Position numbers and translations under genes: made by a program. DNA of 21,808 nucleotides from a virus, in the IMG/VR virus record IMGVR_UViG_3300037843_000180, positions 1 to 21,808 of that record, one strand, 5' to 3'. The notes under the pieces are model-generated. The model saw only the letters and a program-made list of their open reading frames with translations. It did not search any database and was not told the DNA's origin. Shown piece by piece: positions 15,103 through 21,128 of this stretch (position 1 is its first letter; the number at the start of each line of letters is the position of its first letter).

Positions 15103-15519
15103 TTATTTTAATTTCACCAGATCACCTAATTTAGTATCTGGTGTTATTAAATTTGTATTATAAATTATATTTAACCAGCCAGCTATAATCTTTGAATAGT
15201 GTTGTGGATCATTATTATCTATAGCTGGAGCATAGATACTAAACAAATCATGTAATGTACTCTGTGCTGTAAGTTTATGGATAGATAAACAATTTAATTT
15301 AAGACTTATATCATGAGTTAATGACGACCATCCAGAAGAAAATGATGGAAATATTGCATATCCCTTATCATCTTCTCCGATCTTAAAAATACTATCTCTA
15401 AGATTTCCAGGATTTCTATTCCGCCATGATGTACTACCTTTTGGATAAATAATAGAATTTGGAGCATTCCATCCTTCAAAACGCATAATACAATCAGCTA
15501 ATGCTTCTATAATATTCAT
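15103..15519 (-). CDS. Lysozyme-like or virion muramidase-like protein
   Basis: A 138-residue protein. The early helix with RFEG (IMRFEGWNAP, residues 11-20) and the motif SWRNRNPGNLRDS (31-43), then GYAIFPSFSSGWSSL (53-67) and a late helical region with FSIYAPAIDNNDPQHYSKII, match phage proteins annotated as lysozyme- or transglycosylase-like or as structural proteins. E15 is the candidate catalytic acid. There is no signal peptide or membrane segment, so release would need a holin that I did not identify, or the protein acts from within the virion. It is the last gene of the - strand module, with its stop 3 bases from the opposing gene, and it lies 1 base after the GroES-like gene. It is unusual that it is not in the late + strand module. 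Confidence 0.6.
   Translation of the reverse strand: MNIIEALADCIMRFEGWNAPNSIIYPKGSTSWRNRNPGNLRDSIFKIGEDDKGYAIFPSFSSGWSSLTHDISLKLNCLSIHKLTAQSTLHDLFSIYAPAIDNNDPQHYSKIIAGWLNIIYNTNLITPDTKLGDLVKLK
15115..15143. terminator. Probable terminator between convergent modules
   Basis: CACCAGAT at 15115-15122 pairs with ATCTGGTG at 15136-15143 across a 13-base loop. On the + strand it is followed by TTATTAAATTTG, and on the - strand by AAATTAAAATAAAT after the stem. It lies 16 bases past the stop of the last + strand gene and overlaps the last codons of the - strand gene. The place, where two opposing operons meet, favours a terminator, mainly for the + strand, but the stem is short and the tail is not a pure T-tract. 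Confidence 0.4.
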
Positions 15520-15520
15520 A

Positions 15521-16207
15521 TTAATCTTCTCTCGCTACACCTAGATTTTCCATATCAGCATATGAATCTTGATGCATACCGTCTGCAACTTTCTTTAACT
15601 GTATAATTATCCCAAGAATATCTTTTTCTATCATTATCTTGAAATCAATATCCATAAACTTAAATGGAACTCCTGAATAAGTAGCCAAAAGTACCTTCAT
15701 ACCGGGTTTGATAATAGTGATTCCCACTGTACTGATCGCCAGAACATCCCCTGAGTCTGTGTTTCGTTGACTAGTATCTGGAATAATAATCGTCCCCCCA
15801 CGACCTTTACATTGTTCACATAATTGAAAACCATATGTCTTACGACCATCGGATTCTCCTACAGAGCATGTAGGGCATGGTACTTCTGAGATACCATTAA
15901 AAGAGACCTTTTTACCTTGACAACGACCACATGGAAGTTCTGTATGTCCCTTACCATTACATGCAGTACAATCATATTTACTTTTGTGTCCATCCACTTT
16001 TACTAAGACCCGTCCATCGCCACCGAAGATAGGTTGGATCATATATTCATCTTTGATGTTAGCCCAATTATCTTTCTCCCTTAACATATGTTCTTTTTCC
16101 ATACGAGCAAAATAACTTTTCTTCTTATTTTCAGCTTTTATAGTCTGAGATTGCCTTATGTAATAATCTGGTTCACTATGGGTTTCCTGTGGTTTTTGTG
16201 GATTCAT
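15521..16207 (-). CDS. GroES-like co-chaperonin with DnaJ-type zinc finger in the mobile-loop position
   Basis: A 228-residue protein with AAGGACA ahead of its ATG. Residues 1-55 are a charged, probably helical extension. Residues 56-74 (MIQPIFGGDGRVLVKVDGH) match the first GroES strands (IRPL-x-DRVLVK). Residues 80-137 hold four Cys pairs in DnaJ order: CTACNGKG, CGRCQGKK, CPTCSVGE, CEQCKGRG (C80/83, 93/96, 111/114, 130/133), enough for two zinc sites. GroES then resumes with GGTIIIPDTSQ (137-147), SGDVLAIS (152-159), KPGMKVLLATYSGVPFKF (167-184) and IMIEKDILGIIIQL (191-204). In GroES the GGIII-type segment is the GroEL-binding mobile loop, so the finger is inserted in or next to that loop. 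The roof hairpin between GDVLAIS and KPGMKV is very short, as is known for T4 gp31. Likely role: work with host GroEL in folding phage proteins, the finger perhaps binding clients. The fusion and its roles are my inference. Confidence 0.8.
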   Translation of the reverse strand: MNPQKPQETHSEPDYYIRQSQTIKAENKKKSYFARMEKEHMLREKDNWANIKDEYMIQPIFGGDGRVLVKVDGHKSKYDCTACNGKGHTELPCGRCQGKKVSFNGISEVPCPTCSVGESDGRKTYGFQLCEQCKGRGGTIIIPDTSQRNTDSGDVLAISTVGITIIKPGMKVLLATYSGVPFKFMDIDFKIMIEKDILGIIIQLKKVADGMHQDSYADMENLGVARED

Positions 16208-17387
16208 AATATATTTGTCCTTTCAAATCTATTTTCTCTGCTATAAGACCAGCAGATTTTAAAATTGTTATTACTTGTAATAACTGATCTGTTGTTGCAT
16301 CACGATACATAAACCTAACAATAGATTTATAATATGCCATACCAACAGAATCAATATAAGTTAGTAGCTTTGCCTGTATCGAAGCTATCGGACTTTCCCC
16401 AACACTCCTGAAAACAATATCAACTTTATCTCTGATTCCTTCAACATAGCTAATAGCTCTTTGTAAGTGATCTCTTGTGATTGTGAAACTATCTGACTCA
16501 GAAATACTGGTTGTAATGGCCGTTTTGATAATATGAGAGGAGATTCTGGATTTAAAGTTCTGACTAGCATCACTATCATTATCCCTGCGTCTGTTATGGG
16601 CTTCGTAGACTTTTTCCCAAAGTTTCGCTGCTTGGTCATCTATAGTCAATTCTCCTTGCAAGTTACTAATATGTTTTAAATCATTGATAAGATCATCCTT
16701 TAATTTGGATATATTTTGTTTTGGAGCGCCAAAGTTATTCTTTACTAATTGATATTTATCTGTAGCATAGACAAAAATAGTACGAGCAGTGAAACCGCCA
16801 GTAATAGGTGCCAACCTGTCCTTAGATAAGGAGCGCACATAATCAGGAACACACCCACCAAGTAAACTAACAGACATATCTTCAATGGCATGTTTTCCCT
16901 TATTCTTTGTCTTATATTCAAACTTATTCTGATCCCACCATGCACATAACAAACTGTGCATGTTATCATAATTTTGAAGAAATACAGCTAATTCTGGAGC
17001 GATAATACATGTTGTATGATCTTTTAGAATGTTTGTTGTTATAATCTGCCCTACTTTTAAATTTACTGTACTAAAACCTTCCGATAACTCTTCAAGTATT
17101 TCTTGTGGTGTATGCCAATCTTTAATATAATTGACACACTTAGCATTAAAGGCTAGGTCATATCCTCTAGATATAGCTTCACCTTTGCCAATTCCAGGTG
17201 GTCCAACAAGAATGATGTATTGGTTAGGAAAAAATTTAATTCCTCTGTACCAGATATAACAATTACGTTTTATTGTAGAAGATAAAGTTGATATTCCTGA
17301 CCATAATAACCATTCCTTTGGACTTTCCATATTGTCACAATAATCCATAAAAGAATCAAGCCAACTCTTTCCAAGCAATCTGGCCAC
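16176..17387 (-). CDS. DUF3987-like P-loop ATPase, probable replication helicase
   Basis: A 403-residue protein. The start is a GTG with AGAGG five bases upstream; no better ATG gives the intact N-terminus. Walker A is GPPGIGKGE at 62-70 (K68), a Walker B-like strand CIIAPELAVFL lies at 127-137 (E132), and GGFTARTIFVYA at 197-208 has the arginine (R202) typical of DUF3987-like proteins. An N-terminal WLLWSGISTLSSTIKR segment is also typical of that group, which is often found as a helicase-like partner of phage or plasmid primases. The C-terminal part (residues 310-400) looks like a winged-helix domain (QVITILKSAGLIAEK). No separate primase is visible in the window. It overlaps the GroES-like gene by 32 bases and lies 12 bases after the MazG-like gene. 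Confidence 0.7.
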   Translation of the reverse strand: MARLLGKSWLDSFMDYCDNMESPKEWLLWSGISTLSSTIKRNCYIWYRGIKFFPNQYIILVGPPGIGKGEAISRGYDLAFNAKCVNYIKDWHTPQEILEELSEGFSTVNLKVGQIITTNILKDHTTCIIAPELAVFLQNYDNMHSLLCAWWDQNKFEYKTKNKGKHAIEDMSVSLLGGCVPDYVRSLSKDRLAPITGGFTARTIFVYATDKYQLVKNNFGAPKQNISKLKDDLINDLKHISNLQGELTIDDQAAKLWEKVYEAHNRRRDNDSDASQNFKSRISSHIIKTAITTSISESDSFTITRDHLQRAISYVEGIRDKVDIVFRSVGESPIASIQAKLLTYIDSVGMAYYKSIVRFMYRDATTDQLLQVITILKSAGLIAEKIDLKGQIYYESTKTTGNP

Positions 17388-17399
17388 AAAAGCCTCTTC

Positions 17400-17756
17400 T
17401 TATGATTTTTTATTACCATGACGATATGGACGAGCAGAATTATATTCCATTTTCAGTCTAATAGCTTCCATTAGATTTATTTTAAAATAACCACAGTAAT
17501 GGAATAATCTAATGGCAAGATCTGCAAGTTCTATTGGAATACCTTCTGGTTTTATATGTCCTTGGTCATAATATGTTTCATTGTAGTCATGATGCTTACG
17601 ATATTCCTCATATGCTTCCGACAATTCTGTATGCATTAAAGCAATGGCATCTGAAAAAGTTATTGTTGTATCATGCCACCCTTTATCTGCGGCCCTTTTT
17701 GTACATAACTCTATTAATTCTTTTACACCGTAGTCATCATCGTAGATTTGTTGCAT
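17400..17756 (-). CDS. MazG-like nucleoside triphosphate pyrophosphohydrolase
   Basis: A 118-residue all-helical protein with the MazG family metal motif: ELSE at 44-47 within MHTELSEAYEEYR and ELAD at 76-79 within IPIELADLAIRLFHYCGYF. The C-terminal K-x-x-YN-x-x-RPYRHG (102-114) is also characteristic. Such enzymes hydrolyse NTPs or dNTPs to monophosphate and pyrophosphate with Mg2+; in phages they may clean the nucleotide pool or lower ppGpp. The start has AAGGAGC 11 bases upstream. It overlaps the polymerase gene by 34 bases, so it belongs to the replication operon. Substrate preference cannot be read from sequence. Confidence 0.8.
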   Translation of the reverse strand: MQQIYDDDYGVKELIELCTKRAADKGWHDTTITFSDAIALMHTELSEAYEEYRKHHDYNETYYDQGHIKPEGIPIELADLAIRLFHYCGYFKINLMEAIRLKMEYNSARPYRHGNKKS

Positions 17757-19213
17757 CTTGGATATAGCTCCTTTACCTTTCTATAAGTCTCAATAAGACA
17801 ATCTTCCGTATATACTTTCATCTTTTCCTTATGTAGCCAATCATATCCAATCATACCCTCTATCGGAATCTCTATCTGCACTCCGTTATGGAATGTAATA
17901 ACTCTCTTAAATGCTTTTGCAGTATTGGCAAAAACTCTTCGTAACTCTGACTCATTATCTGGTAATTCTTGACACAAGCTGTCATGTCCGTCCTGTAATA
18001 TATAATTATGACATTTCTCAAGTTCGCAGACTGCAAGACCTGTATTGTCACCCACTGTACTTTGGGGGATATAAGAATATGCTTCATTAAATATTGAGTA
18101 ATTCTTTTCACCACTGCGTAGGCCAAGAAATTGTCTTTCCCTTCCCAACGGAGTAACAAGTTTGTGTAAGGAACTGGCGAGACATTCTTGGATATATTTA
18201 TGGTACACTCGTTTAACATTAGGATCAATCCGATCTATGGTAGCAAGGATGTTTTTACATGTCTCTATTGGTACTGTAAAACCACCTTCGGCAGCCAGTG
18301 ATTCACTTAGACGTGTTGGCTGCATACCATAATTATTGGCATGACGCCCTTTCTTACCCATATAATATTGCATCTCGGCAGTATATACCTGTTCTGGGGT
18401 ATATAGACCACCTTCGTTATTACGTGCTCTTTTTAAATCATCAACGCTTATATTGAAGATCTGACTTGCAAACTTATAATGTCTGTTAACACCACGTCTC
18501 ATTTCATCTAGAGCCGTTGTGTTATTAGACAATGCCTGTACAGGCCAATCTTCGGCACTTATTTGGTCTACGAAGAAAAATATTCTATTTTTACGCGCAA
18601 TGATACATTCTTTCCATAAACTAGAAAGGCGGCCTCTTGAGGGAAAATTCTGAGCATTTCCTCCAAGGCCAAAGATACTTTTTTTACTACCTCTTCTTCC
18701 TGTAAGGGTAGCGGCAACGTTGTAGTTACTGAAGTAGATGTCCTTGAATAAACGTGCATTTAGATACCTATTTCTAAAAGTGATGGCTTCTTTTATTTCC
18801 AACAACTTCTTTATGCCGTCGCCAGCACCCTGCGACGGCCAACGAGTAGGATCTGCTAATAATTTCACAAGCGCAAGTTTAGCAACACTGTCAACAAGTT
18901 CATATTCATCTGTTTCTTCATCCTTTTTGCGTATTTTCGGGACGTTGTAACCTAGTGATTTCAATGATTCTAATAATTTTTGTGTAGAGTTAACATTTAG
19001 AGAGTTCTTATCCCCCGGATTATTGTTTGCGCCGATGTAAACTGGAAAACCCCACATATTTGTGAGAAAGACACAATTATCGTCTAGTTCTTTTTGTACA
19101 TGAACACGGACTTGTTCCTTCTTTGGAACATCTATCATCAATCCTCTTAAATCAATCCTATGAAAATGGTAAGCTAATTCATGTTCATAAGTAGATGTTA
19201 TAAGGTTTTGCAT
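17723..19213 (-). CDS. polA: DNA polymerase I (family A), polymerase-domain subunit of a split enzyme
   Basis: A 496-residue protein that covers only the polymerase part. The start (TYEHELAYHFHRIDLRGLMID) corresponds to the region just after the exonuclease domain in whole PolA (M-x-x-x-G-x-x-ID). Motif A is VDQISAEDW with D216 and E221 at the usual spacing. Motif B is GKKGRHANNYGM (286-297), with K287, H291 and Y295 at positions usually R, K and F/Y. Motif C is DGHDSL (408-413), with HDS in place of the common HDE. The catalytic Asp pair (D216, D411) is kept. The ATG has a perfect AAGGAGGT a few bases upstream, inside the HNH gene, so this part is translated on its own. The 3'-5' exonuclease is encoded at 20025-21128; the two probably work together. 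TGRRGSKKSIFGLGGNAQNFP (quoted loosely, 171-191) matches the PolA TGR...LQN-P region. Confidence 0.85.
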   Translation of the reverse strand: MQNLITSTYEHELAYHFHRIDLRGLMIDVPKKEQVRVHVQKELDDNCVFLTNMWGFPVYIGANNNPGDKNSLNVNSTQKLLESLKSLGYNVPKIRKKDEETDEYELVDSVAKLALVKLLADPTRWPSQGAGDGIKKLLEIKEAITFRNRYLNARLFKDIYFSNYNVAATLTGRRGSKKSIFGLGGNAQNFPSRGRLSSLWKECIIARKNRIFFFVDQISAEDWPVQALSNNTTALDEMRRGVNRHYKFASQIFNISVDDLKRARNNEGGLYTPEQVYTAEMQYYMGKKGRHANNYGMQPTRLSESLAAEGGFTVPIETCKNILATIDRIDPNVKRVYHKYIQECLASSLHKLVTPLGRERQFLGLRSGEKNYSIFNEAYSYIPQSTVGDNTGLAVCELEKCHNYILQDGHDSLCQELPDNESELRRVFANTAKAFKRVITFHNGVQIEIPIEGMIGYDWLHKEKMKVYTEDCLIETYRKVKELYPRCNKSTMMTTV

Positions 19214-19611
19214 TGTACCTCCTTATAATATCTTTTTCTATAAGCTAATCTACATTTTTTACATCTTCTTTTACCTTTTTCATATAAAATATTATCATCT
19301 ATAATTTGATGACCATTTTTGCATATTTCATGATTAGCTCTTAAATTGTTTTTAGTTGTCAATAATTCAAGATGTTCAAATTTGACACATAGTTTATTAT
19401 GGCATTTATGATGTGGTTCATAGTTTGATATTACTTCTTTTCCAGAATGTAGTTCATACGAAAATACATGAACACCTATAGGTTTTCTTCTACCCATTAT
19501 CCAACCATAACCAGAATTATTTTTTCCTGCTGTCCATATAATACAATCTCCATCATTTTCTAAGTGGGATAAAAATCTATCAATAATATTGGTATTATAT
19601 GGTCTTGTCAT
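19198..19611 (-). CDS. HNH homing-type endonuclease
   Basis: A 137-residue protein with an AP2/HNH_3-like layout: CIIWTAGKNNSGYGWIMGRR near 23-42, VHVFSYELHSGKE at 47-59, and the HNH core HHKCHNKLCVKFEHLEL at 67-83 (H67/H68, N72, H80). A C-terminal zinc-binding set C97, H101, C117, C120 (CKNGH ... CKKC) is common in phage members of this group. Such enzymes nick or cut DNA in intergenic or conserved gene sites and spread by gene conversion. It has CGGAGG before its ATG and overlaps the polymerase start by 16 bases, carrying the polymerase ribosome site in its 3' end. It lies between the two halves of the DNA polymerase, a classic target for homing enzymes. It is even more AT-rich than its neighbours, which fits later arrival. 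Confidence 0.85.
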   Translation of the reverse strand: MTRPYNTNIIDRFLSHLENDGDCIIWTAGKNNSGYGWIMGRRKPIGVHVFSYELHSGKEVISNYEPHHKCHNKLCVKFEHLELLTTKNNLRANHEICKNGHQIIDDNILYEKGKRRCKKCRLAYRKRYYKEVQCKTL

Positions 19612-19879: not shown

Positions 19880-20047
19880 TTATAATACATTTATTTTACG
19901 ATAATCATGTTTTTCATTATTATGCTTCATACAATCATCTATTGTCTTAAACAATAGAATCTCTTTATGTAAATGACAAGCGGCTCTATATCCTTTTGGT
20001 AGGATATACGGTGGTACATAATCACTATCTAAGCCACGGTCTATCAT
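19880..20047 (-). CDS. Small Cys/His-containing orphan protein
   Basis: A 55-residue reading from the ATG at 20047, which has a weak AGAAGAAGA ribosome site. An upstream in-frame ATG at 20080 would give 66 residues but has no ribosome site and overlaps the exonuclease gene more deeply. The segment GYRAACHLHKEILLFKTIDD followed by CMKHNNEKHDY places C and H residues as C-x-H ... C-x-x-H ... H, which could bind one zinc ion. The N-terminal part has DYVPPYILPKG. No family recognised. It follows the exonuclease gene with a 23-base overlap, as expected in a compact operon, but its small size leaves doubt. Confidence 0.5.
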   Translation of the reverse strand: MIDRGLDSDYVPPYILPKGYRAACHLHKEILLFKTIDDCMKHNNEKHDYRKINVL

Positions 20048-21128
20048 TAAATTCTTCTTCTTGCCTTTCATAGATTTCATAAGTCACAGCAGCGTCCTTT
20101 GCGTTATAAATCATAAATTTTGACTTATATTTTACATTGAAATTTTTTCCTTCGTCCTTATAATAAGGCTCCCTAGTGTACTGTCGTGTTTGAAAATGTA
20201 AGGCGTGTTTGAGGGAAGGCCATAGTATGTGATGTCGTATAAGGGTATCCATGCATCGTTTGAGACATAATGAAAATCCGAGTGCTTCCAAATAATGGGA
20301 ATCAAATAGAAAGTAATTCTGACCAATCTGAGGCACTTTCGTAAGAATCTCATTTAACAACCTCCAAATCTGACAACACTGATCTTCATCATAATCCCAT
20401 AAACTAAAACTCATAGCATCTAATGCTGACTTAGCCAGTGCAATAGTATAAGGATACCCACAATTAATCCCATGATAAAAACTATTTTTCCGTGGTCTAA
20501 TGGTTTCAATATCAACAGATACCAAAGATAAGGACAGGCAATCATGAAGATAACTAATAAGATCAGGGTAAAGAGGTTCGACTGCAAGATTGCGTCTAGG
20601 TAATGGATTAATTGTTCCATATTTCTTCCAATAATCAAATTCCTCTTTTACATGTCCAAAATCTATAAATGCCTGTATTTCATTATAATCCCAGTTACGT
20701 GTAACCCAATCTGGAGGATGGCTCCCTATTATATAATGAGGGTATGAAAGGTATTTAGATTTTAATAGAGAGCCAGCCCATTTTATCAAACTGCTATTCT
20801 TTTCTTTCGCTTGTGTTGTCTCAGGAACGAGATAATTAAGAATCTCATCACTGAGTGGTACTATAAAAGTAGGTCTATAACGATCCAATTCGGATAACAA
20901 AGCACTGAGTACATTCGGTGCGTCATATGTAGCCCCTAGACATGGACGAAGGCTTCTGATATAAGTGTCCCTGTTAAGATCGAGTCCGCCTAGTTTCCAT
21001 GTTTTCTTAAAATTCCAGCCATAGCCACCGCTAAGAACAACTCCATCTTGGGCATCGTTGTTATATGGAGCATCAACAAGAACCCAGATAGGATTTGTTG
21101 TATAACCGAAATCTTTTATAACGGACAT
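20025..21128 (-). CDS. UDG-like domain fused to 3'-5' exonuclease (exonuclease subunit of split DNA polymerase)
   Basis: A 367-residue protein starting in a TAATG overlap with the upstream gene. The C-terminal half is a DEDD 3'-5' exonuclease: VSVDIET at 203-209 (D206, E208), GQNYFLFDSHYL at 269-280 (N271, D276) and YNAKDAAVTYEIY at 341-353 (Y341, D345), the order and spacing of PolA proofreading domains. The N-terminal half resembles family 4/5-type uracil-DNA glycosylases: VLVDAPYNNDAQDG at 16-29, GLDLNRDTYIRSLRPC at 48-63 and GSHPPDWV at 135-142. A UDG-like, exonuclease, polymerase order is known in phage SPO1-type DNA polymerases. Here the protein stops right after the exonuclease, and the polymerase part is a separate gene about 0.8 kb downstream. 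Whether the UDG-like domain is active is unclear. Confidence 0.75.
   Translation of the reverse strand: MSVIKDFGYTTNPIWVLVDAPYNNDAQDGVVLSGGYGWNFKKTWKLGGLDLNRDTYIRSLRPCLGATYDAPNVLSALLSELDRYRPTFIVPLSDEILNYLVPETTQAKEKNSSLIKWAGSLLKSKYLSYPHYIIGSHPPDWVTRNWDYNEIQAFIDFGHVKEEFDYWKKYGTINPLPRRNLAVEPLYPDLISYLHDCLSLSLVSVDIETIRPRKNSFYHGINCGYPYTIALAKSALDAMSFSLWDYDEDQCCQIWRLLNEILTKVPQIGQNYFLFDSHYLEALGFSLCLKRCMDTLIRHHILWPSLKHALHFQTRQYTREPYYKDEGKNFNVKYKSKFMIYNAKDAAVTYEIYERQEEEFNDRPWLR

Follow-up and report, generated by a model that had tools for sequence, protein, structure and literature searches.

A predicted phage GroES-type co-chaperonin with a DnaJ-like, four-CxxC module in its mobile loop

Results

The window, meaning the whole stretch of DNA that was analysed, is a 21,808-bp IMG/VR virus record. 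It carries a co-chaperonin gene on the minus strand, read from position 16207 down to 15521, where the plus strand is closed. The gene (15521..16207) encodes a protein of 228 aa (P0001), recognised by the Cpn10 profile and by its homologues; its parts and the three neighbouring genes named next lie on the same strand. A DUF3987 primase-like gene upstream (16176..17387; Pfam DUF3987, 1.5e-13; phrog_14296, 3.1e-39) overlaps its start by 32 nt, and a downstream gene of 138 aa (15103..15519), which resembles part of a tape-measure family and endolysins (phrog_2276, 6.7e-8), starts one base past its stop. The family A DNA polymerase gene (17723..19213; Pfam DNA_pol_A, 2.8e-9) forms part of a conserved neighbourhood (29 loci). 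In the window, the polymerase and its exonuclease-like domain are split over two ORFs (17723-19213 and 20025-21128), each matching part of phrog_17, with small ORFs in between, one of them at 19198-19611.

The protein scored above the curated cut-off of the Pfam Cpn10 model (E=3.3e-8, with 33.9 bits where 21.1 are required), as did most of its relatives. When the cysteine-rich block was excised, the score rose to 39.8 bits (4.6e-10), and the match then started at profile position 8. NCBIfam GroES models likewise gained on excision, with all of them remaining below their curated cut-offs. Since excision both raises the Cpn10 score and extends the match to the N-terminal side, we conclude that the stretch preceding the cysteines is part of the Cpn10 domain, into which the cysteine block is inserted. 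Consistent with this, a profile of the family (67 sequences; see below) with the insert removed aligned over the full length of GroES chains, starting at residue 1-2 (3nx6, 1.6e-14; Cpn20, 3.7e-25), and the joint 67-sequence profile matched GroES and Cpn20 chains in the PDB with a best value of 3.6e-17. In the alignment of the excised profile, the insertion point falls after strand 1 ends and ahead of the GG-I-V-x-P of the mobile loop, which rules out an end-to-end fusion. A misassembly or frame artefact is ruled out by the 67 non-redundant open frames found across many contigs.

Strand 1 of the GroES barrel corresponds to residues 57-71 (15995..16039), IQPIFGGDGRVLVKV, which align with GroES residues 1-15 in the excised-insert profile and form a strand in the predicted structure. 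The cysteine-rich module follows at residues 76-137 (15797..15982), in the mobile loop's N-terminal limb, supported by the cysteine columns and the profile matches. It precedes and spares the hydrophobic GroEL-binding tripeptide: residues 140-142 (III; 15782..15790) align with the Ile-Val-Leu of GroES, and position 140 is I, L or V in 67/67 sequences. The remainder of the barrel occupies residues 150-201 (15605..15760), supported by the Pfam Cpn10 match, which runs up to residue 201, and by the model. Alignments place a shortened roof segment within it at residues 160-168 (15704..15730). The roof spacer is 9 residues long here and 8 in most homologues, compared with about 17 in E. coli GroES by our own count, and the gap is visible in the family-profile alignments. 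A helix predicted by AlphaFold at residues 14-45 (16073..16168) precedes the barrel; neither its length nor its sequence is kept among the aligned relatives.

An AlphaFold2 model built with the 67-sequence alignment had a pLDDT of 81 and a pTM of 0.66; a model built with three sequences only reached a pLDDT of 31, and the 67-sequence model alone was used. Foldseek recovered the Cpn10 fold from it, the best matches in the PDB being Cpn10 structures (probability 1.00, E about 1e-4), and also returned T4 gp31 (1g31, probability 0.97). Against a viral library, the named top matches were virus co-chaperonins, and the BFVD matches included long uncharacterised GroES models such as A0A8S5RQD3 (174 aa). 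The preliminary description of this locus had, with no strand named, proposed GroES-type segments on both sides of the cysteines, joined at the mobile loop by insertion rather than by fusion, and a roof hairpin nearly absent, as in T4 gp31. The Cpn10 score, the family profile, the full-chain match of the joined flanks, the predicted fold and the roof spacer all agree with that account. We conclude that the protein is, by its sequence, a GroES/Cpn10 co-chaperonin with a four-CxxC module in the N-terminal limb of its mobile loop.

Two other combinations of a GroES-type fold with metal sites differ from this arrangement. Helicobacter pylori HspA is a metal-binding GroES that has its metal site in a His/Cys extension at the C-terminus, whereas the metal module here would be an inserted one. 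Zinc alcohol dehydrogenases, which gave weak matches, have a GroES-like fold with an inserted structural zinc lobe; these are enzymes, not lids, and the lobe sits elsewhere, after the strand equivalent to KxGDxV.

The four CxxC pairs lie exactly where they had been described: motif 1 at C80 and C83 (15959..15970), motif 2 at C93 and C96 (15920..15931), motif 3 at C111 and C114 (15866..15877) and motif 4 at C130 and C133 (15809..15820). Motifs 1, 2 and 4 have the extended CxxCxG form, and motif 3 reads CPTCSV. The insert-only profile found BSD2 (1.3e-7) and DnaJ (1.8e-6) as its top PDB matches, and the corresponding part of the joint profile matched the zinc domain of E. coli DnaJ (1exk, 6.9e-5) and BSD2 (1.6e-3). 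The earlier identification of a DnaJ zinc finger thus holds as a significant family-level resemblance, but not at the level of single proteins: among the members for which a bit score was seen, all fell below the Pfam cut-off of 32.7 bits for the DnaJ central domain (CXXCXGXG), with 16.1 for the window protein and 26.4 for the best relative. We therefore prefer the term DnaJ-like to DnaJ domain.

C80 and C83 are kept in 67/67 members, and C130 and C133 in 66/67 by alignment column; the remaining member, L066, does have the last CxxC, in a shifted alignment. Such conservation exceeds what chance would give. Inserts contain eight cysteines in 54 members, four in 10, nine in two and 12 in one, and none has six. 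In the four-cysteine members the outer motifs 1 and 4 are retained, while motifs 2 and 3 are missing jointly. Zn(Cys)4 sites would be expected to change by whole sets of four, as seen here (4, 8 or 12 cysteines in 65/67), and the insert probably binds zinc. In the structure of the DnaJ zinc domain, motif 1 pairs with motif 4 and motif 2 with motif 3; the joint loss of motifs 2 and 3 suggests the same pairing here, with motifs 1 and 4 forming a putative site I and motifs 2 and 3 a putative site II. A quick tree built from the GroES core with the insert left out, in which many forks are weak, requires at least seven switches between four and eight cysteines. The lengths of the loops between the motifs vary widely.

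Some members carry further cysteine motifs. The sole member with 12 insert cysteines (L088:13215-13937) could hold three zinc sites. Two members (L044:2898-3566 and L098:3124-3768) have two further CxxC motifs where the roof hairpin would be, so that the other loop of the same fold also carries a zinc-like insertion, and one (L004:13112-13822) has two additional CxxC pairs ahead of the GroES part that resemble an N-terminal zinc ribbon.

As a single query against IMG/VR, the window protein gave no match. The neighbouring DNA polymerase, used as a query instead, led to three contigs with GroES-like proteins that share 46-48% identity with that of the window and keep all eight cysteines. A polymerase alignment then yielded 17 loci, and among the 16 with at least 3.5 kb of downstream sequence the gene was present in 15; the polymerase of the lone locus without it is only 22% identical. 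Given that these loci were picked without regard to the co-chaperonin gene, we conclude that the gene is core in that lineage. Further members came from two degenerate DNA patterns, of which one crosses the insert-to-GroES junction and the other the GroES-to-insert junction; these brought the IMG/VR family to 72 ORFs and 67 non-redundant sequences, including that of the window. CxxCxGxG beside IxxP is not diagnostic alone, as such a DNA pattern also returned unrelated CxxC proteins.

When five members were run by tblastn against 50,697 phage records, no zinc-bearing family member came up. The window protein gave four weak matches in the same records, two to ordinary GroES and two unrelated, and an ordinary GroES query matched 211 records at a loose limit of E=10, and in 181 of these the match spanned at least 80% of the query. 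No PHROG spans both the GroES and the zinc parts. A motif scan of cellular genome contigs returned two chance frames only; the scan pattern would catch just 9/67 known members, so that it lends weak support to absence from cellular genomes. A pattern on the N-terminal side of the insert catches 55/67, although it had itself served to collect members. One annotated co-chaperonin of 200 aa, gp096 of Cellulophaga phage phi18:3 (L123:41458-42060), was considered and rejected, having no CxxC insert. It lies one gene ahead of terminase and portal, and the same phage has a second GroES-like gene, gp080, of 84 aa. The architecture had been put forward as undescribed, and we found no such protein in the open-access literature that was searched. 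It counts as a new domain architecture for co-chaperonins, seen in many phages that are uncultivated and absent from every isolated phage that was tested.

The family occurs in two gene neighbourhoods, which the GroES-core tree separates with one change, and the insert is at the same site in both. In the lineage of the window, the gene comes after the family A polymerase and the DUF3987 primase. In the second lineage, it lies ahead of terminase and portal, with DnaD- and DnaB-like genes in between, and one locus (L101) has a major head protein further on. Records of 18 relatives were searched for chaperonin genes: Cpn60 was absent from 18/18, most of which may be incomplete, and 17/18 had one Cpn10 match each. 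The lack of a GroEL in these records makes the host GroEL the likely partner.

In the window's lineage, 22 of the 30 records searched, among them 20/20 of those of at least 44 kb, unexpectedly encode a separate protein with a C-terminal J-domain-like stretch and an HPD motif; in the other lineage, 0/15 records do. These proteins (L124-L145; records G001-G003, G005, G007-G010, G014, G019-G023, G025, G026, G028, G030-G033 and G035) are mostly 160-270 aa long, and all 22 have a terminal region of the form YRxxAxxxHPD...KMSELN. The three that were scored fell just under the Pfam DnaJ cut-off (24-25 against 27.8). The zinc co-chaperonin contains no HPD itself, and there is no J-domain match or J-like protein in the window, which, as a fragment, reaches only some 5.6 kb upstream of the gene.

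Discussion

The closest parallel is T4 gp31, likewise a phage-encoded co-chaperonin of GroES fold that has no GroEL of its own, an enlarged mobile loop and no roof loops (PMC6318259). The family described here shares the phage origin, the short roof, the enlarged mobile loop and the lack of a phage GroEL in records of which many may be incomplete. The mobile loop of gp31 differs in having 22 residues and no metal module (PMC6318259), whereas the insert here adds about 60 residues and four CxxC pairs. The barrel and the GroEL-binding tripeptide are also those of bacterial GroES and chloroplast Cpn20, neither of which has the mobile-loop insert or the shortened roof hairpin. The four CxxC pairs with their glycines recall the DnaJ central zinc domain and BSD2/ZnJ2; here, however, they sit inside a GroES loop, in a protein with no J domain and below the Pfam DnaJ cut-off.

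We consider it probable, though well short of certain, that the protein is a gp31-like phage co-chaperonin that caps the host GroEL, with a zinc clip organising the docking loop. Subunits would form a ring and would cap GroEL instead of the host GroES, and the lid would assist the folding of at least one phage protein, for which head proteins are the best guess. gp31, with its longer loop, missing roof and larger chamber, is required for folding of the T4 capsid protein (PMC6318259); for the present family, a role in capsid-protein folding is pointed to only by the gene order of the second lineage, where the gene lies ahead of terminase, portal and head genes. That order and the near-universal presence of the gene in the polymerase-anchored lineage count for a lid, while its position beside replication genes rather than head genes in the window's lineage counts against one, as does the possibility of a phage GroEL beyond the searched records.

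GroES docks on GroEL through its mobile loop. This loop is highly flexible when free (residues 17-34) and is immobilised upon binding (PMC5653362). The insert ends a few residues before the retained tripeptide. In DnaJ fashion, motifs 1 and 4 would hold one zinc at its base, which would be the invariant site, and a second zinc would sit between motifs 2 and 3 as the optional site. Judging from its position, such a clip might pre-organise a loop that is otherwise disordered, and, standing right before the tripeptide, could pre-pay part of the cost of immobilisation. A pre-organised loop would dock more strongly in competition with host GroES and offer extra surface at the GroEL rim, and the shortened roof would give a more open, gp31-like dome. 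Engineered human Cpn10 accepts foreign peptides in its mobile loop and still forms heptamers with suitable linkers (PMC5118791).

The main rival to a gp31-like lid is that the zinc module captures clients: it would hold phage proteins that are unfolded or nascent at the rim, and deliver them into the GroEL cage, so that an Hsp40-like holdase and an Hsp10 lid are merged in one protein. We regard this as distinctly the less likely reading, though a serious one. BSD2 and DnaJ are the top matches of the insert, ZnJ2, a J-domain-free protein with the same module, prevents aggregation (PMC5818400), and a separate J-like HPD protein is encoded in the window's lineage. Ten members, however, have just one of the two zinc sites, though client binding would still be possible with one, and the loops between the motifs are highly variable in length. 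Moreover, a Cys-deficient ZnJ2 mutant retained holding activity (PMC5818400), so zinc need not imply client binding. A structural role in organising the loop is at least as likely as Hsp40-like handling of clients or zinc.

The J-like protein allows a more elaborate arrangement, which we think improbable, in which an Hsp40 is rebuilt over two genes: the J-like protein would engage the host DnaK, and the zinc module of the lid would take the client. If true, this would be a phage-run hand-off from Hsp70 straight to the chaperonin cage. A phage-encoded chaperone partner relevant to these J-like proteins is the J-protein Rki of phage RB43, which stabilises sigma-32 and so raises host heat-shock proteins, including GroEL (PMC3486835). 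Rki differs from the co-chaperonin in acting on DnaK and in being without a GroES or zinc part.

It is very unlikely that the protein blocks GroEL, its tripeptide binding the chaperonin while the bulky loop stops productive encapsulation and so shuts down host folding or a GroEL-dependent defence. The docking motif is retained and the bulky insert adjoins it, but the entire barrel, which a decoy would not need, is conserved, and phages normally need GroEL themselves. Least probable of all is reuse of the GroES fold without GroEL, for instance in nucleic-acid binding or transcription control, as the overlap with the primase gene and weak matches to Q-type antiterminators (phrog_127) and anti-TRAP might suggest. 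Both identities were set aside, the matches covering the CxxC stretches only. The barrel and the GroEL-binding tripeptide are conserved, and the neighbours differ in the second lineage.

The family is a natural one, with a probably folded metal module of 4, 8 or 12 cysteines in the docking loop, and it makes the relation of loop flexibility to chaperonin affinity and timing directly testable. It may represent a second phage route, besides gp31, for remodelling the GroEL cage.
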